Of a stretch of DNA of 64,000 bases, positions 21,687 through 63,975 are shown piece after piece. Under the pieces are notes generated by a model. The model saw nothing but the letters and a program-made list of their open reading frames with translations, was not told the DNA's origin and did no database searches. The translations under genes and the position numbers were made by a program. The stretch is from Halobacteriales archaeon QS_4_62_28 (GTDB lineage: Archaea; Halobacteriota; Halobacteria; Halobacteriales; Haloarculaceae). Every line of letters begins with the position of its first letter. Position 1 is the first letter of the stretch. Location of the stretch: positions 221,204 to 285,203 of the forward strand of contig PXRO01000037.1 of NCBI GenBank assembly GCA_003021685.1. Reading direction: 5' to 3'.

Positions 21687-21714
21687 TCCGACAGTATAAA
21701 TTCATGCTGTCGGA
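21687..21714. promoter_or_regulatory. Inverted repeat bracketing a TATA-like sequence upstream of 21140..21670
   Basis: TCCGACAG-tataaattcatg-CTGTCGGA, perfect 8-bp arms. Confidence 0.5.
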
Positions 21715-21778
21715 CGAGCTTTCGGGAGTCTCGCCACTCTCGGGTGCCAAAACGCGTCACGGACGCACGTCGACTGTA

Positions 21779-22369
21779 TTAGCCGCGCTCGGGTTCGGTG
21801 TGTCTGCGATCAGTCTCTCGCTCGTCGGTAGCCGCGGTTTCGTCGTCGCCGCCAGCGGCCGGTTCCGCGTCGAGATTGTCGACGGTCGAGCGGTCGACAT
21901 CGGTGTCCGATTCGTCAGACAGCAGCGCATCGAGTTTCCGCTCGTACTCGATCTGTGTCAGTTCGTCGTCGACGTAGCGCTGCGTAAGTCGCTCCCGTTT
22001 CGTCTCTGCTGAGAGTGCAAAGCGATCCGAGAGACCGAATCGTGCCAGCGACGGGAACGTCCGCTCTGCCCGGTCGAGGGTATTCGAGAGGCGTTCGCTC
22101 TCTGGAAGCGACGGCAGCGCCGGCCCCGACACCCGCCGGGTGACGGTAACGAGGAAGGCAATAGCGAACGCGAGGTCCGCAGCAACGAGGGTGGCAGCGA
22201 TCAGCAAGACCAGCGCTGCGTCGCCGAGGACGGTACCGATACCGGCACCGCTGGCCAGTCCGGCGAGTACGGACAGCAGACCGACACCGACCGTTCCGAC
22301 GGCCAGAACCGTCGTGACGGCGACCAGCGCGAGCAGGATCCAGTGGCGGTTACGGTCGAACCAGGACAC
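21779..22369 (-). CDS. SHOCT-domain membrane protein
   Basis: N-terminal TM segments; RERLTQRYVDDELTQIEYERKLDALL SHOCT-like motif. Confidence 0.75.
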   Translation of the reverse strand: MSWFDRNRHWILLALVAVTTVLAVGTVGVGLLSVLAGLASGAGIGTVLGDAALVLLIAATLVAADLAFAIAFLVTVTRRVSGPALPSLPESERLSNTLDRAERTFPSLARFGLSDRFALSAETKRERLTQRYVDDELTQIEYERKLDALLSDESDTDVDRSTVDNLDAEPAAGGDDETAATDERETDRRHTEPERG

Positions 22370-48664: not shown

Positions 48665-48671
48665 CATTTCC

Positions 48672-48751
48672 GATACTGCCGGCTGTCACTGTGTCATACT
48701 GTTCGCGACTCGGGGTTGCGAAATCTGTTACAGACGTACAGCCGGCAGTAT
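48672..48751. repeat. 80-nt inverted-repeat element, copy 1 (ATACTG...CAGTAT)
   Basis: atactgccggctgt ... acagccggcagtat, 14-bp perfect terminal arms; inner ttcgc/gcgaa stem; 8 nt after the beta-helix gene stop. Confidence 0.85.
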
Positions 48752-48839
48752 AACCTTGACAGCACTATTTTCGACGCTCGATCGGCAGCGCTAGTGGCAG
48801 CCGATACCAGTTAAGCCGCTGGCCGCGCTCTTGCCTCGT

Positions 48840-50111
48840 ATGGACGATTCCCAGTACGAACGGCTTCGATCCCTGCGTCGTGACCTGCACCGACATCCAG
48901 AACCCGCCTGGCGGGAGTTCTACACGACGGCGCGTCTCGTCGAGGAGGTACGGCCAGCGGCAGACGAGGTGATCGTCGGCCCGGACCTGCTGGACGACGA
49001 GCGCCGTCTCAACGTCTCCGACGAGGAGACGCTGGCCGAATGGCGCGAGCGCGCACTCGACGCGGGGGCAGACGAGGAGACGGTCGCCCACCTCGAAGAC
49101 GGTCAAACCGGTCTGATGGCGATACTGGACCGGGGCGAGGGGCCGACGGTCGGCCTCCGTGTCGACATCGACGGCCTGCCACGGGAGGAATCGGCGGACC
49201 CGGACCATCAGCCAGTCGCCGAGGGCTTTTGCTCCGAAACCGGCGCGATGCACGCCTGCGGGCACGACGCCCACGCGACGTTCGGCGTCGGCGTCTTGGA
49301 AGCCATCGCCAACAGCGACTTCTCCGGAACGCTCAACGTCCTGTTCCAGCCAGCAGAGGAGATCATCGGCGGCGCGAAGGCCGTCCAGCATCGGCATCTC
49401 GACGACATCGATTACTTGCTGGCGGTTCATATCGGACTCGACCACCCGACTGGCGAAATCGTCGCGGGGATCACGGACATCCTGGCGGTCAACCAGTTCC
49501 GCGCCGAGTTCACCGGCGAACCGGCCCACGCTGGCGGCCACCCGGCCCAGGGCCGCAACGCCGTCCAGGCGATGGCCGCGGCCGTCCAGAATCTCTCTGC
49601 GATTCCCCGCCACGAAGACGGGGTGACCCGGGTCAACGCCGGGGTCGCCGAGGGCGGGACGGCCACGAACATCATCCCCGAGCAGGCACGTATCGAGGGC
49701 GAGGTCCGGGGCGAGACGACCGATCTGATGACCTACATGCGCGACCGGGCCGACCGGGTGATCCAGAGCGCCGCCGGGATGCACGACTGCGAGGTCACTA
49801 TCGAGCAGACGGGCGACGCGCCGAGCGGGGACAACGACGACGAACTCGTCTCGCTGGGCTACGACGTGGCTGGCGACGTGCCCGGCCTCTCGTCGCGTCT
49901 CCGCACGGCACCGCTTGGCGGGAGCGAGGACGCGACGGTGCTCATGGGGCGGGTCCAGGAAACAGGCGGCAAAGCCGCGTTCGTCTGTGTCGGAACCGAC
50001 CATCCGGGCGGCCATCACACCGCGACGTTCGACGTGGACGAGCCGTCGCTGGCCATCGGTGTCGACTGGCTCTCGGCGACGTTGCGAGAGATTGCACGGC
50101 AACGGCCCTGA
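48840..50111 (+). CDS. M20 family amidohydrolase/peptidase
   Basis: LRRDLHRHPEPAWREF, VGLRVDIDGLP, MHACGHDAHATFGVGVLEAI, HAGGHPAQGRNAVQAMAAAVQNL. Confidence 0.93.
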   Translation: MDDSQYERLRSLRRDLHRHPEPAWREFYTTARLVEEVRPAADEVIVGPDLLDDERRLNVSDEETLAEWRERALDAGADEETVAHLEDGQTGLMAILDRGEGPTVGLRVDIDGLPREESADPDHQPVAEGFCSETGAMHACGHDAHATFGVGVLEAIANSDFSGTLNVLFQPAEEIIGGAKAVQHRHLDDIDYLLAVHIGLDHPTGEIVAGITDILAVNQFRAEFTGEPAHAGGHPAQGRNAVQAMAAAVQNLSAIPRHEDGVTRVNAGVAEGGTATNIIPEQARIEGEVRGETTDLMTYMRDRADRVIQSAAGMHDCEVTIEQTGDAPSGDNDDELVSLGYDVAGDVPGLSSRLRTAPLGGSEDATVLMGRVQETGGKAAFVCVGTDHPGGHHTATFDVDEPSLAIGVDWLSATLREIARQRP

Positions 50112-50192
50112 TACTGTTTGTTGTAACTGTTTACCGCTGGCTCGCCGACACGGTGTGGCGAGCCAGCGGTGCTGACTTACAACAGACAGTAT
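50111..50192. repeat. 82-nt inverted-repeat element, copy 2 (ATACTG...CAGTAT)
   Basis: atactgtttgttgtaa ... ttacaacagacagtat; inner perfect 13-bp stem ccgctggctcgcc/ggcgagccagcgg; first base overlaps amidohydrolase TGA. Confidence 0.85.
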
Positions 50193-50215
50193 AAAAACAG
50201 GTTCGTGCGAGTGGG

Positions 50216-51589
50216 TCAGTATTTGGGGTCTGCGCCGGTGACGGCGTACACCTCGTCCATCAACTCGTCGCGCCGGGACTGCCACCGGCCGAAGTCGTCG
50301 GGACTGGACGGGTAGGACTCGTAGTGATCCAGCAGTGTGTCGGCGAGTTGCTTCGTCTGATAGAGGTCGTAAATCGTCCCCCAGTGGCCGAAGCTCTTGA
50401 TCGCGGTCTTGAGTTTGAGTCCCAGTCCTATGTCGGCCGACCCGGAGTACAGGGCGTCTGCGATCTTCGTGGCCGGCATCGCGGCCAGTAGTCCCATCAG
50501 GTCGTCCACGTCGTAGGCCGTCGTGAAGATGTTGTACACGTCCAGCGCCGCGTAGCGCGAGCCGAAGTGGGCCATCACGCGCTCGTTGTACTCCCAGAGG
50601 GCGGCCTCCTCGTCGGCCCGGCCGGATTCGAGCGCTTCGATAGCCTGCTCGCCGGCGTACTGGCCGGCGTAGGCGGCCCCCGCGATGCCGCCACCGGTTG
50701 TCGGGTTCACGTGGCCAGCGGCGTCGCCGACGGCGATAAAGCCCGGCGCGACGGCCGAATCGTAGGGCCGCCGGGTCGGCAGCGCCGCGCCGAGTTTGTC
50801 CTGGACGGTCACGTTCTCGAACTCCGGTCGCCCGGCGAGGTCCTGTTTGAGGTCGTCGACCAGTTCCATCGGTTCCTCGGTCATCTGGAACCCCAGACCG
50901 ACGTTGATCTCCGTGTCAGTGCGCGGGAAGTACCAGACGTAGCCCGCCGCGCGTTCGGCCGGCTTGAACACGAGCGCGTCGTCCCAGGGCACCGGTTCCT
51001 CGGTCTCGACGATCTCGCGATAGGCAGAACTGAACTGCGAGTAGGTGACGTTGGTGTCGAACGTCGCCGCGTCGAGGTCGGCCTTGTCCTGCAGGATCGA
51101 CAGCGCGCCCGCGGCGTCGATCACCAGGTCGGCCTCGTAGGTGACAGCATCGCCGTTCCGGATCCCGGAGAGTCCCGTCACGCGCCCGTCGTCGTCCTGG
51201 CGTACGTCCTGAACGACGGTGTCGTAGTGGAACTCGACGCCGGCCATTTGCGCACCCTCGATCAGCAGGCGGCCGTACTCCCAGCGGTCGATGACGGCGA
51301 GTTCGCCCGGCACCGGAATCTCCAGGATCGTGTTTTCCTCGGGAATCTCGAAGCGTCCGTGGTCGACACCAGTGTTGGTAAAAGCCCCCTCGATCTGTGA
51401 TTTGGGGATGGCCTTCGGGAAGTTCGAGGCACCCTTCAGTGCGTCGCCACAGGCGATGTGGCCCGCCTCCGTCTCGTCTTTCCGCTCGGCGACGACGACA
51501 TCGTACCCTTCGTGGGACAGCGTCGCCCCAGCGTAACAGCCCGACGTGCCCGCACCGACAATGGCCACGTCGTACTCGTATGTGGTCAT
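50216..51589 (-). CDS. Geranylgeranyl reductase family protein
   Basis: DVAIVGAGTSGCYAGATLSHEGYDVVVAE Rossmann motif, VIGDAAGHVNPTTGGGIAGAAYAGQYAGEQA-type motif. Confidence 0.9.
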   Translation of the reverse strand: MTTYEYDVAIVGAGTSGCYAGATLSHEGYDVVVAERKDETEAGHIACGDALKGASNFPKAIPKSQIEGAFTNTGVDHGRFEIPEENTILEIPVPGELAVIDRWEYGRLLIEGAQMAGVEFHYDTVVQDVRQDDDGRVTGLSGIRNGDAVTYEADLVIDAAGALSILQDKADLDAATFDTNVTYSQFSSAYREIVETEEPVPWDDALVFKPAERAAGYVWYFPRTDTEINVGLGFQMTEEPMELVDDLKQDLAGRPEFENVTVQDKLGAALPTRRPYDSAVAPGFIAVGDAAGHVNPTTGGGIAGAAYAGQYAGEQAIEALESGRADEEAALWEYNERVMAHFGSRYAALDVYNIFTTAYDVDDLMGLLAAMPATKIADALYSGSADIGLGLKLKTAIKSFGHWGTIYDLYQTKQLADTLLDHYESYPSSPDDFGRWQSRRDELMDEVYAVTGADPKY

Positions 51590-51829
51590 GCAGAGCACTG
51601 TTCTCCCGAGGGAGAAAACTCTTTATTCCGACGCCACAGAATCTGTCGATTCGACGGGTCGTTCACCGGCCCAGCGTCAGTGCCAGATCTCTTCGTTCCG
51701 GCTGTGATGGTAGTGATAACTTATCACACGGACCGGACGATCCGGAGACGGGTGAACTACCCCGACCTACCGTGGGGACTGAATCCGTAGTCCGAAGAGT
51801 TTTGCCGGGTGGTTCCGAACCCCCGAAAT

Positions 51830-52156
51830 ATGAGCGAGCACACGGTCAAGTTCGTGGGGACCGGGGAGGTCATCACGGTTTCAGACAAAGAGACGATCCT
51901 GAGCCGCTGTATCGAGGAGGGGATCGCACAGGAGTACTCCTGTCGCGTCGGGATGTGTCTGGCCTGTTCCGCGGAGGTCGTCGAGGGTGATGTGGTCCAG
52001 CCTGCCGCGCGCGGGCTGACTGAACAGGAGCGTGAGAGCTACGCACTGACCTGCATGGCGCGGCCGGCATCGGACCTACAACTCGACCGCGGCAAGTACC
52101 CGCCGAGCATCGAAACGGAGACCGAGACGGACGAACCTGCCGCTGCTGACGATTGA
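51830..52156 (+). CDS. 2Fe-2S ferredoxin
   Basis: EYSCRVGMCLACSAEVVEGDVVQPAARGLTEQERESYALTCMARP: CxxxxCxxC...C plant-type ferredoxin. Confidence 0.92.
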   Translation: MSEHTVKFVGTGEVITVSDKETILSRCIEEGIAQEYSCRVGMCLACSAEVVEGDVVQPAARGLTEQERESYALTCMARPASDLQLDRGKYPPSIETETETDEPAAADD

Positions 52157-52361
52157 TTCGATTACTTCCGGACGAACGAGCAGAAAGAAGTTCGGAGATA
52201 CTACTCGACAACTCAAGGCGGGCTTTCGACCGGTTTCAGACGCGTTGGCATGCGTCTGTCGAAAGGACAGATGATATAAGCGAGTGGCTCCTACAGTAGG
52301 TTGACCCGTTGCAGTCCTCCGCCAGGGGACGGCCGTCAAAGCTTGCCACACTTTCACAATC

Positions 52362-52961
52362 ATGACCAGTCGCGTATACAGACTCCACTCGACGCTCGAA
52401 CTGCCACTCGAAGACACGTACGATTTCTTCGAGGAACCTGATCTTCCCCCGAACATCTCCGATATCGAGATCACTCGCCGAAACAATACGCTAATTATCA
52501 GTGCTGTTTCGGCCGACGACACGATCAGCAAGTACACGCCAACGGCCCAGCTCAAGGCCAGCGTTACCGAAAACCGGGTGTACGAGGAAGATCCAGAAGA
52601 GATGGACGGTCCCGGACCGGGGCCGAGTGGCGGTGGTGGCAATCCTCAGTGGGGCGCATTCGAGGAGGAAGAAGAGGAGATACCGTCCGAACTCGTCGAG
52701 TACGCCTGTTTCAAGGGCGACCGCGAGACCGTTTTGCAGAACACGGCACTCCAGTACCCGATGTTCCAGGTGCTCTGTGAGGTCGCGAAAAACGCAGAGA
52801 AAGGCACTCTTACTGCGATTGTCTGCGTCGACGAGGAACTCGACGCAGTCCGTATCGTCGACGGCGAGGAACGACCCGCGACGATCAACGTCGCCGAGGA
52901 ACCACGCGAAGACCGCGACGACGACAGCGTCGACTGGCGAAACAACGAGTTCATCAGCTAA
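52362..52961 (+). CDS. Conserved haloarchaeal hypothetical (DUF7110-like)
   Basis: MTSRVYRLHSTLELPLEDTYDFFEEPDLPPNISDIEITRRNNTLIISAVSADD...; acidic, Gly/Pro linker. Confidence 0.7.
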   Translation: MTSRVYRLHSTLELPLEDTYDFFEEPDLPPNISDIEITRRNNTLIISAVSADDTISKYTPTAQLKASVTENRVYEEDPEEMDGPGPGPSGGGGNPQWGAFEEEEEEIPSELVEYACFKGDRETVLQNTALQYPMFQVLCEVAKNAEKGTLTAIVCVDEELDAVRIVDGEERPATINVAEEPREDRDDDSVDWRNNEFIS

Positions 52962-53041
52962 TCGACGACACGTCTCTGGACTCGCTTCGTCGATGGCGAC
53001 TGGCACCATGAGACTAGCGACCGTCGGCCGAAAGATGTCCT

Positions 53042-53620
53042 TTATCGGCCGATCTGCTCTGCCAGCCGAAGTGTCACCTCGGCCTCGATCCACGCCGCGA
53101 CGACGATCATGACGACGGCGACCGCATAGAGGACGGCGGCTTCCCTGATTTCCTGACCGGTGACGAGTTCGTCGGTGCGCCCGCGGATGTACAGGTACGT
53201 CCGGTGGCCGAAGCGAAAACCGATGGCTGCGACGAGCAGGATCGCCGGAATCTCGACGATCCCGTGGGGCGCGATCAGCACGAAGACCGTGAGCGCCGAC
53301 ACTTCGCCCATCGCGATCTGTGCGACCGCGCCGACGACGATGCCGTTCAGCACGAGTACGAAACCACTGAACAGACCAATCGAGACGACTCCGAGCAACG
53401 TGACGGTGATCGCTATCAGGTTGTTGACCAGGATCGTCCCGAACGTGATCTCGTCCGGAAAAAACGGCGATCCGCCGGCGTCGCCACGCAACAACTCAGC
53501 GGGTACCTGTGTCCCGAGCAGAAAGCCGAGGGCGATGCTGACGGCAAAGAGGGCTGTGGCGGCGGGGACGTAGCCGCGAAGCCATCGACCGGCAATCGCC
53601 CGGGCGTGCCTGCGTCGCAT
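53042..53620 (-). CDS. SpoIIM-family membrane protein
   Basis: ILVNNLIAITVTLLGVVSIGLFSGFVLVLNGIVVGAV...IAPHGIVEIPAILLVAAIGFRFG. Confidence 0.9.
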   Translation of the reverse strand: MRRRHARAIAGRWLRGYVPAATALFAVSIALGFLLGTQVPAELLRGDAGGSPFFPDEITFGTILVNNLIAITVTLLGVVSIGLFSGFVLVLNGIVVGAVAQIAMGEVSALTVFVLIAPHGIVEIPAILLVAAIGFRFGHRTYLYIRGRTDELVTGQEIREAAVLYAVAVVMIVVAAWIEAEVTLRLAEQIGR

Positions 53621-53752
53621 TGGCTGTCTTTTGAGACTGGTCTTGCCTAATCATCTGTGCTTTGAGGCGTCGGTGCTGGTGTGTTTACTGTTCACACATC
53701 TGTCGGTTGTCCAAAAAGTACTTACATCTGACCTAATTACATCTCATTACGA

Positions 53753-54730
53753 ATGAGCGAGCAGGCAAACTTCCCGGAGTATCTCGACGTCGACTACAGC
53801 GACGGCGAAGGCGAGTCGCCAGAAGACTACCCGTCGATCAACCACAAGATCGAGAAGGCCATCGAAGTAACCAAGCAGGGTCTCGAACAGTACGAGAACC
53901 CGGTGGTCATGTGGACCGGTGGCAAGGACTCGACGCTGACGCTGTACTTTGTCAAGGAGGTCGCCGACCGCTTCGACCTCGAAGTCCCGCCGGTCGTCTT
54001 CATCGACCACTACCAGCACTTCGACGAACTCATCGAGTTCGTCGAGCGCTGGGCCGACGAGTGGGACCTCGAAGTCGTCTGGGCGCGCAACACCGACGTT
54101 GGCGACTACGTCGCGGAGAACGACCTCTCCCCCGGTGACGACGTTCCCGTCGACGCGCTCTCGGAGCACAATCAGCACCACATCCGAACTATCCTCGAAT
54201 ACGAGGAGGACACCTTCCCGTTCCTGCTCGACACGTACGTCGGCAACCACCTCCTGAAGACCGTCGCGCTCAACGACACTATCGAAGAGCACGACGTCGA
54301 CGGGATCATCTCGGGCATCCGCTGGGACGAGCAGGAGTCCCGCGCCGACGAGACGTTCTTCTCGCCGCGTCACGACCCCGACATCTACCCGCCCCACGAC
54401 CGCATCCAGACGATTCTCCAGTTCGCCGAGGCCGACGTGTGGGAAGCCTTCTGGAACTTCGTCGCCCCGGACACCGTCGAGGCGTTCCCGGACGAAGGGT
54501 ACGTCCCACAGGGTCAGGACGACCTCCCCGAGGGCGTCGAGAAAGAGGACGTGCCGGTCTCGCCCAAGTACTTTGCCGGGTTCCGCTCGCTCGGCAGCGA
54601 GGTCAGCACCGACAAATCCGCCGAAGAGCCTGCCTGGCTGCAGGACATGGCGAACACGACCGAGCGCGCCGGCCGCGCTCAGGACAAAGAGGACCTGATG
54701 GAGCGCCTGCGCGACCTCGGCTACATGTAG
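53753..54730 (+). CDS. PAPS reductase/CysD-like PP-loop family protein
   Basis: PVVMWTGGKDSTLTLYFVKEVADRF PP-loop; GIISGIRWDEQESRADETFFSPRHDP. Confidence 0.9.
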   Translation: MSEQANFPEYLDVDYSDGEGESPEDYPSINHKIEKAIEVTKQGLEQYENPVVMWTGGKDSTLTLYFVKEVADRFDLEVPPVVFIDHYQHFDELIEFVERWADEWDLEVVWARNTDVGDYVAENDLSPGDDVPVDALSEHNQHHIRTILEYEEDTFPFLLDTYVGNHLLKTVALNDTIEEHDVDGIISGIRWDEQESRADETFFSPRHDPDIYPPHDRIQTILQFAEADVWEAFWNFVAPDTVEAFPDEGYVPQGQDDLPEGVEKEDVPVSPKYFAGFRSLGSEVSTDKSAEEPAWLQDMANTTERAGRAQDKEDLMERLRDLGYM

Positions 54731-54742
54731 TGCAACGCCGGC

Positions 54743-56125
54743 CTACACTTCTTCGGCCAGTTCGTCGGCAACACCGGTGTAGTCCACCGGCGTGAGCGCG
54801 AGCAGTTCCTCGCGAACCGACTCCTCGACATCGAGTTGCTCGATCATCTCGTGGACGTCCTCTATCGTGACCTCCGTCCCTCGCGTGGCTTTCTTCACCT
54901 GTTCGTAGGCGTTCTCGTGGCCCTCGCGCCGGAGAATCGTCTGGATTGCCTCGCCGATCACCTCGGGGGTTGCATCGAGGTCGTCGCGCATCACTTGCTC
55001 GTTGGGGACGACCTTGTCGAGGCCACGCTGGCATTTCTGGTAGGCGACCAGGCAGTGGGCGAACGCCCCACTGATATTGCGCTTGACCGTCGAGTCCGAG
55101 AGGTCACGCTGGAGTCGAGAGGTGGTGACGTAGTCGCCGAGGAAGACCAGATCGGAATTGGCCTTGGTGAGGTTCCCCTCGCTGTTCTCGAAGTCGATGG
55201 GATTGACCTTGTGGGGCATCGTCGAGGAGCCCGTCTCGCCCTCGACAGTCTGCTGACCGAGGTAGCGATCCGAGACGTAGAGCCACATATCCAGATCGAG
55301 GTCCCGGAGGATGTCGTTCGCACCACGGAAGGCGTCGAACAGTGCTTCCAGGTCGTCACAGGGGTTGACCTGCGTCGTCAGTGGCTCGTGTTCCAGTCCC
55401 AGGTCACGGACGAACAGCCGAGAGAACACCGGCCAGTTCACGTTCGGGTAGGCGGCTTCGTGGGCGGCGTAGGTCCCGGATGCGCCGGCGAGTTTCCCGG
55501 CAAGTTCGTCGGCGGCACGCTCGATGCGTGCAATAGCCCGACCGAGACGGGAGGCGTAGACGGCCATCTCCTTGCCGAAGGTCGTCGGTGTGGCTGGCTG
55601 GCCGTGTGTGCGGGCCAGCATCGGCAGGTCGCCATGCTCGTGAGCGAGGTCGACGAGTCGGTCCCGGACCGTGCGTAGTTCCGGCACGAGCACGTCCACA
55701 GCAGCGGGCTTGATCAGCAATCGATGCGCGAGATTGTTCACGTCCTCGCTGGTGAGTCCGAAGTGGATCCAGTTGTCTACGTCCAAATCCTCGGGCTGGC
55801 GCAAGCGAATAAAGTATTCGACGGCCTTCACGTCGTGGTTAGTCGCCGAGTACCCCTCGTAGCCCTCCGTTTCGAGTTGCTTGACAACAGTCGCATCCTC
55901 GCCGTCGAACGACTCGTAGAGGGCGCGCAGTGCTTCACGCTGAGCTGTATCGATAGAGAGCGACGTCTCGTCCAGATCAGCCAGTGCGATCAGGTATTCG
56001 ATCTCGACCTGCACGCGAGCGCGCATGAGCGCACGCTCGCTGGCGTACGGAACGAGCGGTTCTGTATGACGAGCGTAGCGGCCGTCGAGCGGCGAGACGG
56101 CGTCGAGTGGACCCCGATCAGTCAT
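54743..56125 (-). CDS. purB: Adenylosuccinate lyase
   Basis: VSPLDGRYARHTEPLV, LPMLARTHGQPATPTTFGKEMAVY, GSSTMPHKVNPIDFENSEGNL. Confidence 0.97.
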   Translation of the reverse strand: MTDRGPLDAVSPLDGRYARHTEPLVPYASERALMRARVQVEIEYLIALADLDETSLSIDTAQREALRALYESFDGEDATVVKQLETEGYEGYSATNHDVKAVEYFIRLRQPEDLDVDNWIHFGLTSEDVNNLAHRLLIKPAAVDVLVPELRTVRDRLVDLAHEHGDLPMLARTHGQPATPTTFGKEMAVYASRLGRAIARIERAADELAGKLAGASGTYAAHEAAYPNVNWPVFSRLFVRDLGLEHEPLTTQVNPCDDLEALFDAFRGANDILRDLDLDMWLYVSDRYLGQQTVEGETGSSTMPHKVNPIDFENSEGNLTKANSDLVFLGDYVTTSRLQRDLSDSTVKRNISGAFAHCLVAYQKCQRGLDKVVPNEQVMRDDLDATPEVIGEAIQTILRREGHENAYEQVKKATRGTEVTIEDVHEMIEQLDVEESVREELLALTPVDYTGVADELAEEV

Positions 56126-56164
56126 ACTCGTGGATGTGCGAGGCCGGCGAAAAAGGGTGTCGGA

Positions 56165-57133
56165 TCAGGCGTCGGTCCGCTCAGCCTCGCCGCTGGCGCG
56201 CTCGTAATACGCCCGGTACCGCGACAGTTTCCGGTACAGCGCGTAGCCGACGATGCCGTCGAAGAGAACGACGAAGCCGAGCAGGGTCAGGATATTCCAG
56301 ACCGGCAGGACGGTCGGCAGCGTCGAGACCAGCGTGTTGTAGGTCGCGTGGATCAACGCGGCGATGAGGAGGCCCTTGACCACGATTGGGCCCCTGTCGT
56401 CGGGATTGAACTTCGCCAGACCGAGGTAGTAGCCCGCGAAGGCCGAGTACAGCACGTGGCCGGGACCGACGAGGGCGCGACCCGTCGCGGTGCCGACGGC
56501 CTGCTGGAGTTGTGCCATGTTACTCATACTCGCCGCCTGCAGGTACCCCTGGGCGATGTACAGCGTGTTCTCTATAGTCGCAAAGCCGAGGCCAGCAACG
56601 GCCCCGTAGACGGCTCCATCGACGACGGCGTCGAACGACTCCCTCTCGTAGGCGTGGGTTCGGATCGCGAGCCACTTGACCGTCTCTTCGATGGGACCGA
56701 CGACGAGGAGAAAAGACAGCGCCAGACCGATGATCGGGATCAGCCGGAAGAAGCCACCGAGGATGGTGTTGACCGGTGCGGCAATCGCGGCGAACAGCAC
56801 TGCGAGGACGAACGTGATCGCCATCGTCTCCACTGGCTCCCGGCGCGTCGGGTCACCGTACCAGACGTACGCGACGAGCGCAACGGCAGGAACCGCCGAC
56901 AGCAGTGCGAGCACACCCAGACGTGGCCGGCGAACGACGAGCAGGCCGGCAAAACTCAACTGGAGGGCGAACAGGACAATCGCTCCGAGGAGCAGGATGT
57001 ACCGGCGACTGGCACGGAGAAAGCCATGGAGAGACACCGAAAAGCGGTCGAAGGCTGATCTCGGGTCCCACTCGGCCACGTCGTACAGGTCTTCCTCGCC
57101 GAGGGCCTGCTGGATGGGGTCACGATCCGACAT
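56165..57133 (-). CDS. PrsW family intramembrane metalloprotease
   Basis: VVGPIEETVKWLAIR, VDGAVYGAVAGLGFATIEN, GPGHVLYSAFAGYYLG motifs. Confidence 0.92.
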   Translation of the reverse strand: MSDRDPIQQALGEEDLYDVAEWDPRSAFDRFSVSLHGFLRASRRYILLLGAIVLFALQLSFAGLLVVRRPRLGVLALLSAVPAVALVAYVWYGDPTRREPVETMAITFVLAVLFAAIAAPVNTILGGFFRLIPIIGLALSFLLVVGPIEETVKWLAIRTHAYERESFDAVVDGAVYGAVAGLGFATIENTLYIAQGYLQAASMSNMAQLQQAVGTATGRALVGPGHVLYSAFAGYYLGLAKFNPDDRGPIVVKGLLIAALIHATYNTLVSTLPTVLPVWNILTLLGFVVLFDGIVGYALYRKLSRYRAYYERASGEAERTDA

Positions 57134-57183
57134 ACTGTATCACTCGCCCGCCTCTGTGGAGTATTTTTGGGCTCGTCTGCGAC

Positions 57184-57744
57184 TCACCGGCGCAATGCGC
57201 TCGGTTCGAGATGCTCGGTGGGTTGCTCCGGGTTAGACTGGAGATACCACCCGAAGCTGATCCAGGACAGGCCGAGTGGAATCGCGAGCAGCGTGGTGAG
57301 CCCCTCGCCATCGCTAAAGCCCAGAAAGAGAATCGTCCCGACGATCAGGGCGACACCAATCCAAGGCGGCGTCCGGCGCGCCCGAAGCAAAGCGATAGCG
57401 AGCAACAGCGTGCCACCGACGAGCGCGAGAACGCCGAGAGCGATGAGTAACTCGACGAGGACGTCGCCATCTACGAGGAGTGTCAGCCACTGACCGATTG
57501 CAAATACGAGACCACCGACCAGAGCGATGCCGCTGCCTTCGCCGCCCGGGAACTTGTAGATCCACGGGAGTCGTAACACGACGCCGAGCAGACCGACCGC
57601 GAGGACGAGTCCGGAGAAACCGACGAAGGCCCGAATCGGCCCGGTGGTCGCGCCGGTTGCGAACATTGTCAGGCTCCATCCGGTCCAACAGACGCCACCG
57701 AACGCGAGTGTGATCTGTGGCCACGGACGCTCCTGTTCGGTCAT
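57184..57744 (-). CDS. Hypothetical membrane protein
   Basis: Several hydrophobic segments; MTEQERPWPQITLAFGGVCWTGWSLTMFATGATTG. Confidence 0.75.
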   Translation of the reverse strand: MTEQERPWPQITLAFGGVCWTGWSLTMFATGATTGPIRAFVGFSGLVLAVGLLGVVLRLPWIYKFPGGEGSGIALVGGLVFAIGQWLTLLVDGDVLVELLIALGVLALVGGTLLLAIALLRARRTPPWIGVALIVGTILFLGFSDGEGLTTLLAIPLGLSWISFGWYLQSNPEQPTEHLEPSALRR

Positions 57745-57844
57745 ACCACGTCGGTCGGTGCCGTCCCCTGAAAACGTTACTGTCGCCCTCGCCCGATCTC
57801 CACCTCGGCCCTACAGTTTTGTCACTCCCCCGCAACAGACTGGT

Positions 57845-58831
57845 ATGGACACTGTCCTCGTCATCGGTGGAACACGGTTTATCGGGCGTCACACGGTCGA
57901 AGTGTTCCGTGACCAGGGGTACGACGTGACGATATTCAACCGGGGCACGCACTCGAACCCCTTTGCCGACGACCCCACCATCGAACACGTGGCGGGAAAC
58001 CGCCGAGACCGAGAGGACCTGCGGGCCGCCCGCGAGGCGGTCGATCCCGACGCCGTCGTCGACTGCGTCGCGTACTTTCCCGAAGACGTTCGCGAAGCGA
58101 CAGACGTGTTCAGCGACGCCGGGGCCTACGTCTACGTTTCCAGTGGTGCGGCCTACGGTGCCGAGCGCGTTCCAAAGCGTGAGAACGACACCGTACTGGC
58201 CGACTGCACGCCCGAGCAGGCGACCACCGACAGCGCGGCGACGTACGGGCCGCGCAAGGCGGAGGGCGACCGCGAGGTGTTCGCGGCCGCCGACCGGGGC
58301 GTGCGGGCGATGAGTGTCAGGCCGACGGTGGTGTACGGTCCTCACGACTACACCGAACGGTTCGACTACTGGATCGACCGCGTCGACCACCACGACGCTG
58401 TTGTCGTCCCCAGTGATGGGCTGTCCCTCTGGCAGATGGCCTACGTCGAAGACGTGGCGAGTGCGTTACGAATCGTCGCCGAGAATGGCGAGGCGGGCGC
58501 GGCCTACAACGTCGGCGACGAACACGCGCCGACACTCGGCGGATGGATCGAGTTGCTCGCCGACGCCTGTGACACGTCGGTCGAAGCGGTCGGTGCGAGC
58601 GAGCGAGAACTCGCCCGGTTCGACCTCGAACCGGATTCGTTCCCGATCTATCGGTCCCCGCCTCATCTGCTGTCAGTCGAAAAGCTACGGTCGCTCGGGT
58701 GGTCCTCGACCTCGCACGACGAAGCGCTCGCTGCCACTGTCACAGAGCACAGAGCGAGTGAGCGAACAGGGAGAGAAGCGGGGCCCGACCGAGCATACGA
58801 ACAGCGAATGATCCGCGAACTCGGCGAGTGA
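57845..58831 (+). CDS. NAD-dependent epimerase/dehydratase family protein
   Basis: VLVIGGTRFIGRHTVEVFRDQGYDVTIFNRG; YVSSGAAYGAERVPK; YGPRKAEGDREVF. Confidence 0.92.
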   Translation: MDTVLVIGGTRFIGRHTVEVFRDQGYDVTIFNRGTHSNPFADDPTIEHVAGNRRDREDLRAAREAVDPDAVVDCVAYFPEDVREATDVFSDAGAYVYVSSGAAYGAERVPKRENDTVLADCTPEQATTDSAATYGPRKAEGDREVFAAADRGVRAMSVRPTVVYGPHDYTERFDYWIDRVDHHDAVVVPSDGLSLWQMAYVEDVASALRIVAENGEAGAAYNVGDEHAPTLGGWIELLADACDTSVEAVGASERELARFDLEPDSFPIYRSPPHLLSVEKLRSLGWSSTSHDEALAATVTEHRASERTGREAGPDRAYEQRMIRELGE

Positions 58832-58940
58832 GAGGGCTGTCAGCGGTCGGATCGAACGGGCGGCGCGTAGGCACGGAGGCGATGCCGTCGGACGGCATAC
58901 GACCCCCGGCACGGTGCTCCCCCGACTTCTGTCCCCCAAT

Positions 58941-59063
58941 CTATACCCATTTGTCAAGACAGTCCGTCGAGCAAAACGCCAGGTCCACGTCTGAGTCGGA
59001 CTGGTCGACGTGGGCCCTGAGCGTGTACGCCTGTTGGTTGCTGTCACAGTTAACACACGACAT
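58941..59063 (-). CDS. 40-aa zinc-finger-like small protein
   Basis: Own reading of minus strand: MSCVNCDSNQQAYTLRAHVDQSDSDVDLAFCSTDCLDKWV*; CxxC...CxxxC; TATA-like TATAAC about 35 nt upstream; not in the ORF track. Confidence 0.75.
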   Translation of the reverse strand: MSCVNCDSNQQAYTLRAHVDQSDSDVDLAFCSTDCLDKWV

Positions 59064-59250
59064 CGCAACTACGTATTCAGGTACCATTCACATTGTTATA
59101 CTGTACTTACCAGCCGTAGTAGAGAGCAGATAGCCGACCAGGGTCGAAATCGCGACCAGAAACTGACGTCGCGTTCGATCCTCGCTACCGACGCGGCGGC
59201 AACCACCGATCACGGCAAGGGTTTTCACCCGTGGCACGCCAGCCACAGGT

Positions 59251-60309
59251 ATGTTCGACAAAACGAGTTGGATCCGCCTCCCTCACAACGTCGTGGTGGG
59301 CCACGGGGTTCTCGACCAAACCGTCGCTGCGGTCGAGGACATCCACCTGTCGGGACGACCGCTGGTCGTCTCGAGTCCGACCCCGTACGAAGTCGCGGGC
59401 GAGCGCGTCGTCGCACAGTTCGCGGCGACCAACGCGGACCCGGCCGAGGTGATCGTCGAGGAGGCCAATTTCACGGCCGTCGAATCGGTTATCGAAACGG
59501 CACAGTCGGTCGACGCGGGCTTCCTGCTCGGGGTAGGTGGCGGGAAAGCTATCGATATCGCCAAGATGGCCGCCGACGACCTGAACCTGGGCTTTGTCTC
59601 GGTGCCGACCGCCGCGAGCCACGACGGTATCGTCTCGGGCCGGGGGTCGGTCCCAGAAGGCGATACGCGCCACAGCGTCGCCTCGGAGCCGCCACTGGCG
59701 GTCGTCGCCGACACCGAAATCCTCGCGGAGGCCCCCTGGCGGCTGACGACTGCTGGCTGTGCCGACATCATCTCGAACTACACGGCCGTCCGGGACTGGC
59801 AACTCGCCAACCGGCTCAAAAACATCGAGTACTCCGAGTACGCCGGCGAACTCGCGCGAATGACTGCCGAGATGCTCGTCGAGAACGCGGGGTCGATCAA
59901 GCAGGGTCTCGAAGAATCGTCCTGGATCGTCGTCAAGGCACTCGTCTCCTCGGGTGTCGCGATGTCGATTGCCGACTCCTCGCGGCCGGCATCAGGTGCC
60001 GAACATCTCTTTTCCCATCAACTCGACCGGACCGCGCCCGACCCGGCCCTGCACGGCCACCAGGTCGGCGTCGGATCGATCATGACCGAGTACCTCCACA
60101 GCGGGGCGAACGGCCAGTGGATCGACGTGCGTGACGCGCTGGCCTCGATCGGTGCCCCGACGACGGCCGGGGAACTGGGCATCGACGAGGAGACCGTTCT
60201 GGAGGCGCTGACGACCGCCCACGAGATACGGGATCGATACACGATTCTGGGTGACGGGATGAGCGAAGCGGCGGCCCGCGAGGCGGCAACGGTCACGGGC
60301 GTCATCTAG
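59251..60309 (+). CDS. egsA: NAD(P)-dependent glycerol-1-phosphate dehydrogenase
   Basis: FLLGVGGGKAIDIAKMAADDL, SVPTAASHDGIVSGRGSVP, GAEHLFSHQLDR, ALHGHQVGVGSIM. Confidence 0.95.
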   Translation: MFDKTSWIRLPHNVVVGHGVLDQTVAAVEDIHLSGRPLVVSSPTPYEVAGERVVAQFAATNADPAEVIVEEANFTAVESVIETAQSVDAGFLLGVGGGKAIDIAKMAADDLNLGFVSVPTAASHDGIVSGRGSVPEGDTRHSVASEPPLAVVADTEILAEAPWRLTTAGCADIISNYTAVRDWQLANRLKNIEYSEYAGELARMTAEMLVENAGSIKQGLEESSWIVVKALVSSGVAMSIADSSRPASGAEHLFSHQLDRTAPDPALHGHQVGVGSIMTEYLHSGANGQWIDVRDALASIGAPTTAGELGIDEETVLEALTTAHEIRDRYTILGDGMSEAAAREAATVTGVI

Positions 60310-60324
60310 GGCATCGGCCGGGAC

Positions 60325-60807
60325 CTATACTAACCCGGGCGTCTCTGGATCGGACTGCCAGACGCCGTCGCGCAGTTTTCCACCTGATCGGGAGCCGTCG
60401 AACAGGACGAGCAGTCGATACACTGTCTCGGCGTCCGGATCGTCGGCGTTTCGGACGCCGGCGATCGTGACACGGACGATCTGTTCGATTGAACACGTGA
60501 CGCCGGTCGACTCTTCGACAGCGTTTCTGGCGCGGTCTTTGAGCGACCGACCGCTGTCACCCACACATCGCGGGACGCGACGCTGCCCATCCGTGCCGAT
60601 GTGGAGTACGTCGCCGTTGTCGTTGTAGACGCGCACGTACACGTCGGCGATACCTTCACTCGCGCGCTCGCTCGCGTCGTGGTACGCGTCCGCTCTCAGG
60701 GAGAGCGTCGTCTGATTGACCGGAAACGAACCGTGTCGCTTCTGCAGCGACTCGATCCCCTCACCGATGATGTTACTGGACCCACCCGCCATATCCATAT
60801 CATCCAC
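60325..60807 (-). CDS. Nudix-like hypothetical with degenerate Nudix box
   Basis: ADVYVRVYNDNGDVLHIG...SLKDRARNAVEESTGVTCSIEQIVRVTIAG aligns by eye to Nudix region but lacks REUXEE. Confidence 0.6.
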   Translation of the reverse strand: MDDMDMAGGSSNIIGEGIESLQKRHGSFPVNQTTLSLRADAYHDASERASEGIADVYVRVYNDNGDVLHIGTDGQRRVPRCVGDSGRSLKDRARNAVEESTGVTCSIEQIVRVTIAGVRNADDPDAETVYRLLVLFDGSRSGGKLRDGVWQSDPETPGLV

Positions 60808-61068
60808 TGAACGTCGGTACTAATAAAAGCAACCGGTCGTTTTCAGTCTCGGATCCCGTTCAGGTAGCCCTAGTATATAGGAATACACCATCGCGAACAG
60901 TGCGACGACGGCAACCAATGCGGTCGCGTCTGGCGAGAGTGTAAGGCCGCCAGTGCCTGTCCCACCGCAACGTCGTCGCCGACGTTCCAGCGACAGTCGC
61001 GGTGCACACCCACACGCCCCCTGCCACAAGCATAATCCCTTTCCACGGACAAGCCGTACCCCTCGCCA

Positions 61069-62034
61069 ATGTCGAAGTGCGACGCGTGTGGCAAGACCGA
61101 GAATATGCCGTACCGGTGTCACCACTGTGGGGGGACCTACTGCTCTGAACACCGGTTGCCGGAGGCTCACAACTGTCCGGGCCTGGAGAACTGGGACGAC
61201 CCGAACGGCGTGTTCGATAGTGGATTCGACGACAGCGTCCAGACGAACCAGTCACAGGGCAGTGGTGGCTTCAGTGATCGGCTCTCGGTCGATACCGGGC
61301 CCGGGAGCCTGTTCGGGTACTTCCGCGGGAACGCCACCTACACGATGCTCGGACTGATGTGGATCACGTTCCTGTTAGAGCATCTCGTTGCCCTCTTCGG
61401 TATTCCGATCGGGGGCGAAACCTGGAGTGCCATCTTCACGATCCAGCCCCAGCATCCAGAATACGTCTGGACGTGGGTCACATCGATTTTCTCGCACGCG
61501 CCGGTCCAGTTCGGCCACATCGTGTTTAACAGCATCATCATCTTCTTTTTCGGACAGATCGTCGAGGACTACATCGGCTCCAGGAAGTTCGTCTACCTGT
61601 TTATCGGGTCCGGCGTCCTGGCCGGACTCGGTCAGATCGGCCTCGCGCACGCGCAGGTCTTGCTCGATATGACGAACACGCTCGGTCCGGGTGCCCTCGG
61701 TGCCAGCGGTGCCGGCCTGGCGATCATGGGCGTTCTGACGGCGCTCAACCCCAACTTGCGCGTCTATCTCATGTTCCTCCTGCCGATCCCGATCTGGGCG
61801 TTCACCGGCTTCTATCTCGTCATCAGTATCGCGGGCGTCCTCTCGACCGGTGGTGGCCTGCTCGGTGGCAACGTCGCCGACATGGCCCACCTCGTGGGAC
61901 TGCTGGTCGGACTCTGGTACGGTCTCAAAGTCAAGGGACAGCGCCGGACGCCCAACCAGATCCAGCTGGGCGGTGGCGGGCGCGGTCCGGGCGGTCCCGG
62001 CGGGCCGGGTGGACCCGGTCGCCGTCGACCCTGA
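61069..62034 (+). CDS. Rhomboid-family intramembrane serine protease with N-terminal AN1-type zinc finger
   Basis: CDACGKTENMPYRCHHCGGTYCSEHRLPEAHNCPGL (AN1); FSHAPVQFGHIVFNSIIIFFFG, LGASGAGLAIMGVL (GxSG), HLVGLLVGLWYGL. Confidence 0.93.
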   Translation: MSKCDACGKTENMPYRCHHCGGTYCSEHRLPEAHNCPGLENWDDPNGVFDSGFDDSVQTNQSQGSGGFSDRLSVDTGPGSLFGYFRGNATYTMLGLMWITFLLEHLVALFGIPIGGETWSAIFTIQPQHPEYVWTWVTSIFSHAPVQFGHIVFNSIIIFFFGQIVEDYIGSRKFVYLFIGSGVLAGLGQIGLAHAQVLLDMTNTLGPGALGASGAGLAIMGVLTALNPNLRVYLMFLLPIPIWAFTGFYLVISIAGVLSTGGGLLGGNVADMAHLVGLLVGLWYGLKVKGQRRTPNQIQLGGGGRGPGGPGGPGGPGRRRP

Positions 62035-62876
62035 TGGAGCCAGTCCGTCCCGAGTTCGTTCCGGACCCCGCGCTGTCCCGCGAAGAGATGGACGCAGTTC
62101 AGCGCGACATCGCAGCGGCGGCGACGTTCACCGATGACTTCGACTTCGATGTGGCCGCGATTCACCACGACGATGTCAGACAGCAAACACTCGGCACCGC
62201 CGACGAGGCGGGCGATCAGCAAGTGCTCGACGCTGGCGCTATCGAAGACGGGCGTCCACTCGTTGCCGGCGTCGACCAGGCGTTCGTTGACGACGTGGCC
62301 GTCTCGGCTATCGTCCTGACCCGCGGCGACGAGGTTGTCGAGCGCGTCTACGCCGCCGTCGAGACAGAGATCCCCTACGTTCCCGGTTTGCTCTCCTTTC
62401 GCGAGGGGGGCGCGATTCTGGCGGCGTTCGAACACCTCAACGGGACGCCGGACCTCGCGCTGGTCGACGGGAGCGGACGCATTCACTTCCGCGAGGCCGG
62501 ACTGGCGACCCACGTCGGCGTCGTCCTCGACGTGCCAACCGTCGGTGTCGCGAAGAGTCTGCTCTGTGGGACGCCACGCGAGTCACTGGACCGAAGGCTC
62601 CCGGTCGGCACACGAATCGAGGTCGAAGCCGACGATTCGGTCGAGACGACCGATCCCGGAACGCTGATCGGTCACGCCGTCCAGACCCGCCAGTACGAGT
62701 CTGGGAACCGCTCCATCAACCCCCTCTATGTCAGCCCCGGCCACCGGATCAGTGCCGAAACGGCGGCCGACATCGTGCTGGCCTGTCGGGCCGGCTACAA
62801 ACTCCCGGAACCGACGAGACTGGCCGATAGTTACGCCGACGAGGTCAAAGCCGAGGTTCGCACTCAGTATGACTGA
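62034..62876 (+). CDS. nfi: Endonuclease V
   Basis: VAGVDQAFVDDVAVSAIVL, YVPGLLSFREGGAILAAFEHL, LALVDGSGRIHFREAGLATHVGVVLDVPTVGVAKSLLCG. Confidence 0.93.
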   Translation: MEPVRPEFVPDPALSREEMDAVQRDIAAAATFTDDFDFDVAAIHHDDVRQQTLGTADEAGDQQVLDAGAIEDGRPLVAGVDQAFVDDVAVSAIVLTRGDEVVERVYAAVETEIPYVPGLLSFREGGAILAAFEHLNGTPDLALVDGSGRIHFREAGLATHVGVVLDVPTVGVAKSLLCGTPRESLDRRLPVGTRIEVEADDSVETTDPGTLIGHAVQTRQYESGNRSINPLYVSPGHRISAETAADIVLACRAGYKLPEPTRLADSYADEVKAEVRTQYD

Positions 62877-62955
62877 TACTGCCGGTTGTAACTATTGCAA
62901 GAGATTCGCGACCCCGGGCTCGCGGCATGCTTCACGGACGGACAGCCAGCAGTAT
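62876..62955. repeat. 80-nt inverted-repeat element, copy 3 (ATACTG...CAGTAT)
   Basis: atactgccggttgtaact ... acagccagcagtat; first base overlaps endonuclease V TGA exactly as in copy 2. Confidence 0.8.
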
Positions 62956-63022
62956 GACCGCATGGCAGTGTGGCCGGCACAGTGACGGGAACATTAACTA
63001 CCCGGGGGGCGACCCCTCGTGC

Positions 63023-63838: not shown

Positions 63839-63975
63839 CCGACAGCGTCGACGACCTCGCTGTGACCCCCCGCTATGAATAGATAAGCAACCGCGCCGAA
63901 TACATCGGAGACACCGAAAGCCCTCGTACAGTTGCAGTCCCGCGGCTCGCTGCGCGCGCTTCGCGTGCTTGCCAC

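Follow-up and report, generated by a model that had tools for sequence, protein, structure and literature searches.

The stretch of DNA considered here, 64,000 nucleotides (nt) of contig PXRO01000037.1 of Halobacteriales archaeon QS_4_62_28 and referred to as the window, contains three dispersed palindromes of about 80 nt that begin with ATACTG, end with CAGTAT and lie on or shortly behind stop codons. The question raised by this locus is whether such hairpins are kept at gene ends by a function in the transcript, or whether they arrived there as mobile DNA. A sequence-only reading had offered both possibilities: a small family of miniature inverted-repeat transposable elements (MITEs) or repetitive extragenic palindromes (REPs) preferring gene ends, or an RNA 3'-end stabiliser, terminator or processing signal. 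We are highly confident that the palindromes belong to a superfamily of orphan MITEs moved by a putative transposase that duplicates a TNA target, and that insertions into stop codons rebuild the stop, with elements collecting at gene ends as the result.

The three palindromes are not due to chance. Exactly three matches to ATACTG-N-CAGTAT occur in the window (48673-48751, 50111-50192 and 62876-62955), whereas 0.01 is expected from dinucleotide shuffles, and they lie where the sequence-only reading had placed them, with the sequences and pairing arms that it described, including the perfect 13-bp inner stem of copy 2. Its termini were right as palindromes but not as boundaries. The base preceding ATACTG is the same as the base following CAGTAT, and these bases fall within T-N and N-A, so that the element proper is TACTG...CAGTA flanked by a direct repeat TNA, and the outer A and T are part of the duplicated target. 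With these boundaries, and with genomes numbered G and loci numbered L, the features are as follows.

48671-48673, unstranded: left target copy of copy 1, CGA, a decayed TNA
48674-48750, unstranded: copy 1, TACTG...CAGTA, 77 nt, CCGGCTGT subfamily, flanked by CGA and TAA
48751-48753, unstranded: right target copy of copy 1, TAA
50109-50111, plus strand: TGA, at once the stop codon of an amidohydrolase-type gene (48840-50111) and the left target copy of copy 2; the orthologous stop is empty in G002
50112-50191, unstranded: copy 2, TACTG...CAGTA, 80 nt, TTTGTTGT subfamily, other members of which lie in L007, L009, L019 and L025
50134-50146, plus strand: 5' arm of the inner stem of copy 2, 13 bp, CCGCTGGCTCGCC
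50157-50169, plus strand: 3' arm of the inner stem of copy 2, 13 bp, GGCGAGCCAGCGG
50192-50194, unstranded: right target copy of copy 2, TAA, differing from TGA at one base
62874-62876, plus strand: TGA, at once the stop codon of the gene at 62034-62876 and the left target copy of copy 3
62877-62954, unstranded: copy 3, TACTG...CAGTA, 78 nt, CCGGYTGT subfamily, with about 40 relatives in G001-G003
62955-62957, unstranded: right target copy of copy 3, TGA, leaving the duplication intact

Copies 2 and 3 are therefore placed on a TGA stop and copy 1 about 8-9 nt past a stop, as had been claimed, and the flanking triplets (TGA/TGA for copy 3, TGA/TAA for copy 2, CGA/TAA for copy 1) show decay of the duplication rising in that order.

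That TNA is a target duplication, and that the elements have moved, is established by an empty site and by nested insertions. The gene preceding copy 2 has orthologues within the genus. In G002 the orthologue ends GACGAC-TGA-ACGATCAG (GACGAC-TGA-ACGATC) and the element is absent; at the same stop codon G003 carries a tandem pair, TGA-[TACGG...CCGTA]-TGA-[TACGG...CCGTA]-TGA-ACGG, and G001 has a pair arranged alike but made up of different TACGG elements (L285 in G003, L286 in G001). Comparable tandems, element-TGA-element, were seen in G009 at 658662, 1395637 and 2375696. The site of copy 3 is without an element in the five congeners G001 to G005, so that the comparison of orthologous loci which the sequence-only reading had called for reveals the presence/absence polymorphism expected of MITEs. 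Nested insertion occurs twice in G009, where TACGGTCGGTTG-TAA-GTCTG is interrupted as TAA-[TACTG...CAGTA]-TAA, and an insertion inside an element at L425 duplicates TCA. A comparison of G009 with G030, genomes that are too far apart, gave one usable comparison, a gene end lacking the element. The duplication is of fixed length, and although identity of the two triplets was not required in any of the searches, they are identical in 35 of 37 copies of G009, 32 of 48 copies of the draft genome to which the window belongs and 88 of 111 copies in loci of other named species, with enrichment of C before and G after the TNA (a CTNAG-like context). Duplication of TA only, as in IS630-like elements, could be ruled out since base N is the same at either flank and a single TGA stands at the empty site.

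The family is much larger than the window suggests. Had the genome held these three copies only, without covariation, the sequence-only reading would have counted as refuted; the draft (2.64 Mb in 57 contigs, from the same genus as G001) contains 50 ATACTG-N55-85-CAGTAT palindromes, against none for a reversed control pattern, and three subfamilies are visible from the bases following TACTG (CCGGCTGT, TCGGACG and TTTGTTGT). A stricter pattern, with TNA and TASKG...GTA on both sides, is present in 21 of 60 relatives (92 matches in G001, 79 in G009, 76 in G023, 46 in G003 and 43 in G029) and missing from many sister genera of the same family among these 60, the control giving zero matches everywhere. 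When partial copies are included, about 152 loci are found in 2.0 Mb of G009. A typical element is 74-80 bp long, has no coding capacity and is multicopy, and both G009 and G001 have many near-identical copies inserted at positions unrelated to one another. The family is carried by named members of Halomicrobium, Haloarcula, Halapricum, Halovenus, Halostella, Salinirussus, Halostagnicola, Natrarchaeobius, Natribaculum, Natronorubrum and Halobellus, among others. G001 itself is apparently Halomicrobium katesii or a strain very close to it, judging from three elements spaced 3086 and 1795 bases apart, as in the H. katesii locus L451. One copy lies on a contig binned as bacterial (L455, Nitriliruptoraceae metagenome-assembled genome (MAG) SKSM01000107.1); the CSSed sample series also yielded haloarchaeal MAGs with the element, and the contig is probably a misbinned haloarchaeal one. 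Phage records contained no family elements and viral contigs gave no match to the two-ended pattern; one-ended matches in the latter were dismissed as chance, the partner end being absent. The annotation lists no feature under plasmid-borne copies, and the end sequences were found as strings in no haloarchaeal paper of the literature searched.

The two ends of an element match in class. Besides the inverted repeats at the termini, three terminal classes are distinguished in G009 (TACTG, TACGG and TAGTG), and both ends belong to the same class in nearly every copy; even in single copies with TCGTG...CACGA or CACTG...CAGTG ends the changes are matched. Across 114 elements, positions 1-12 pair nearly always (in about 85-100% of the copies), and pairing is poor at most of positions 17-22 and 26-28 but returns in the centre (about 29-37). 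Position 16 practically never pairs: it is C when read from one end and G when read from the other in 108 of the 114 elements, in all classes and in both genomes. It follows that every element has one end of left type and one of right type. Most simply, the two unlike halves would descend from the opposite ends of a single ancestral transposon; it is also possible that function requires the ends to be unlike.

The placement of the elements was quantified with home-made gene calls on 1.99 Mb (69%) of G009. Only 2 of 85 copies lie within genes, and in 27 of the 83 non-genic copies the duplicated triplet is a stop codon, although stops account for 8% of the non-genic TNA sites that could be hit (binomial p 1.4e-10). 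Copy density, given as a ratio, is 3.7 at the stop triplet, drops to 0.58 over the next 10 nt (one copy), rises to 2.6 between 11 and 30 nt, is close to 1 from 31 to 120 nt and lower beyond that; between divergent genes, where 14 of the 83 copies are found, it is 0.65. In the genome of the window a stop codon is used by 18 of 48 copies, and about a quarter of the copies lie between divergent genes. Since a TGA or TAA stop is itself a TNA that is rebuilt at the junction, insertion there is silent, and such tolerance would explain most of the pattern, whereas a peak as sharp as that at the stop would also be compatible with active preference; preference for stops, or a benefit of the insertion, is a possible cause of the excess.

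A transposase actively steered towards stop codons or 3' ends, beyond harmless tolerance, would account for the contrast between 3.7-fold at the stop triplet and 0.58-fold directly behind it, and for the fact that one stop codon carries different elements in three genomes of the genus. However, stops are ordinary targets because TNA covers TGA and TAA, insertion there is harmless, and the peak and the gap rest on small counts (27 and 1) from home-made gene calls, so that we regard this refinement as possible but less likely than not. The excess at and just past stop codons could also be attributed to selection for hairpins that act in RNA as 3'-end stabilisers, processing sites or termination signals. 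In agreement with this, the folding of copies 1 and 2 is much stronger than that of shuffled sequences, with z values on the two strands of -6.7/-6.3 and -9.4/-11.6, and the arms show an excess of double changes. When 47 independent pairs of closely similar copies were compared (mean identity 92%), 16 double changes at paired positions were found in the outer arms against 2.9 expected by independence, 13 of which keep Watson-Crick pairing, and 20 against 6.7 in the inner arms of the centre; the spacers gave 9 against 4.1. At the true partner position, mutual information is in many but not all cases higher than at shifted ones, in the arms as well as in the centre. The sequence-only reading was thus correct that arm differences are compensatory more often than independence predicts, but selection on an RNA fold is not required, as the ends of a transposon must match anyway: one transposase that has to fit both ends would produce an excess of double changes, correction templated by the hairpin is a further ordinary source of them, and compensatory changes alone do not show an RNA function. 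Moreover, in the outer arms the single changes by which a pair is lost or gained (43) outnumber the doubles that keep one (13), the folds are strong on both strands, and copy 3 (-1.6/-0.7) folds no better than shuffled sequences. The left end comes first relative to the preceding gene in a ratio of 20:6 in G009 and 8:9 in the genome of the window, an inconsistency that leaves a strand-specific role unsupported, and copies between divergent genes fit a role at RNA 3' ends poorly. A functional RNA or terminator should have a consistent orientation and a stable fold in every copy, which is not what is observed; no Rfam family matches the elements, and we consider a general role as stabiliser or terminator very improbable.

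A different mobile origin was also considered, in which the palindromes are REP-like or IS200/IS605-like and are moved in single-stranded form by a Y1 (HUH) transposase. Such an enzyme would suit the strong palindromes, whose fixed mismatch at position 16 and unpaired spacers are conserved in all classes, and would fit the fact that no DDE partner was found. Transposition by HUH enzymes produces no target duplication, and this explanation is contradicted by the 3-bp TNA duplication seen in the flanks, at the empty site and in nested copies. Absence of target duplication has been described for IS605-type elements (PMC3119063). No Y1 gene linked to the family elements was seen, although no systematic search was made, and we find this origin hardly credible.

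The interpretation as MITEs moved by a TNA-duplicating transposase has its own weak side, and several observations weigh against it. No autonomous element with family ends was detected by scans for terminal inverted repeats and TNA in the same 1.99 Mb of G009 or in the loci scanned from other genomes. Matches to DDE_Tnp_1 (PF01609) number 103 in six genomes, and of the 30 loci inspected none has TACTG or TACGG ends; their ends are others. In 40 relatives there was no match to PF13359 or PF13586, the Pfam domains of IS5-type and PIF/Harbinger-type enzymes, and no IS5-type transposase was found between family ends in the material covered. Long units bounded by terminal inverted repeats, tried as candidate autonomous elements, turned out, with one exception, to be family elements interrupted by unrelated insertion sequences (ISs), or pairs of MITEs. 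A unit of 1128 bp in G003 (L549:1501-2634), and of 1116 bp at the same site in G001 (L551), does have TACGG ends (TACGGACGGKTGTAGTTGC, 18 of 19 bases matching) with TCA on both sides; it encodes a winged-helix regulator and a DUF7509 protein, neither of which is a transposase. Finally, the excess at stop codons is larger than simple promoter avoidance would give at neighbouring 3' sites.

The 1128-bp unit looks like host genes captured between element ends, because elsewhere the two genes are found together with no such ends around them; G002 lacks DUF7509, and in G004 it is present without family ends. DUF7509 was also ruled out as a transposase, being absent from G009 and from the genome of the window and present elsewhere without family ends. 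In six congeners, a search for ends that do not lead into the usual element body revealed no transposase-bearing unit, and a 28-bp one-sided match on a plasmid of Haloarcula sp. JP-L23 proved to be merely another MITE. For now, the family is an orphan. The interrupted elements (L069:3501-4997, L068:3501-6335 and G009:C1:235401-236599) contain an ISH8-type IS with target duplication CTTTACGAAC, an IS66-type IS with a nested IS630-type one, and an IS630-type IS alone; the palindromes thus serve as landing sites for ISs.

According to the mechanism that we propose for these orphan MITEs, a gene-free element of about 78 bp, with a left-type end ...GTAAC and a right-type end ...GTAAGTYYGT around a short central palindrome, would be mobilized in trans by a putative transposase that cuts a TNA target in CTNAG-like context with a 3-nt stagger, duplicating TNA. 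Insertion into a TGA or TAA stop would restore the stop at the junction and leave the protein unchanged, and insertions at or just behind stops, being tolerated or preferred, would let elements gather at gene ends. The family, its copy number, the target duplication, the empty site, the nested insertions and the stop-codon excess are observed; a cut-and-insert enzyme, and tolerance rather than use as the cause of the excess, are what we infer from them. One may go further and imagine an undescribed haloarchaeal transposase that recognises matched unlike ends, or a hairpin with a fixed mismatch, and is steered to stops, the terminal classes being lineages of enzyme and ends that changed together, but this we think rather unlikely.

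Two further repeats in the window deserve mention.

About 21690-21779, unstranded: decayed family copies of the TCGGACG subfamily, a half copy CCGACAGTA that ends CCGACAGTATAA, and behind it a full but degraded copy
63907-63972: a dispersed repeat of another kind (ccgaaagccctcgtacagttgcagtcccgcggctcgctgcgcgcgcttcgcgtgc...), found at many sites in G001-G003 in copies of 91-97% identity

The results reveal a superfamily of mobile elements across many haloarchaeal genera that is blank in annotation, and account for hairpins on stop codons without an RNA function. They also offer a clear case in which the target sequence of a transposon turns stop codons into safe landing sites, and raise the question which enzyme moves the elements and whether it is drawn to gene ends.

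In comparison with known systems, the proposal of a small MITE/REP-like family with a preference for gene ends was right in kind, mobility, a 3-bp TNA duplication and an excess at stop codons now having been demonstrated, and we assign the previously unannotated family to the MITEs. Bacterial and archaeal MITEs with known partners mostly depend on IS630-type enzymes, which duplicate TA. MITEs of the Correia/NEMIS, RUP and ERIC type (PMC10969869) are likewise short, gene-less, hairpin-forming, intergenic and of high copy number, with inverted repeats and a target duplication; the present family differs by duplicating TNA and by having no partner found. With the IS1031 and IS427 groups of the IS5 family and with PIF/Harbinger-Tourist MITEs it has a 3-bp target duplication in common. 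The sequence duplicated by the IS1031/IS427 groups and by PIF/Harbinger is TNA (or TWA), as in the present elements, and we know of no member of these groups with TACTG, TACGG or TAGTG ends. A duplication of 3 bp is documented for PIF/Harbinger (PMC2213677). REPs or REPINs with their RAYT enzymes are also dispersed palindromes that often lie at gene 3' ends, but they insert without target duplication, in which the present family differs. The nearest haloarchaeal kind described is the small mobile repeats (SMRs) SMR-A and SMR-B of Haloquadratum walsbyi, which share inverted terminal repeats, the lack of genes, nested insertions and the lack of a known matching autonomous transposon. These SMRs are 80-110 bp long, and it was reported that target duplication is absent and that SMR-A targets PATEs and IS605 elements (PMC3119063). 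By that description they are set apart from the elements found here, which duplicate TNA and favour stop codons and 3' flanks.

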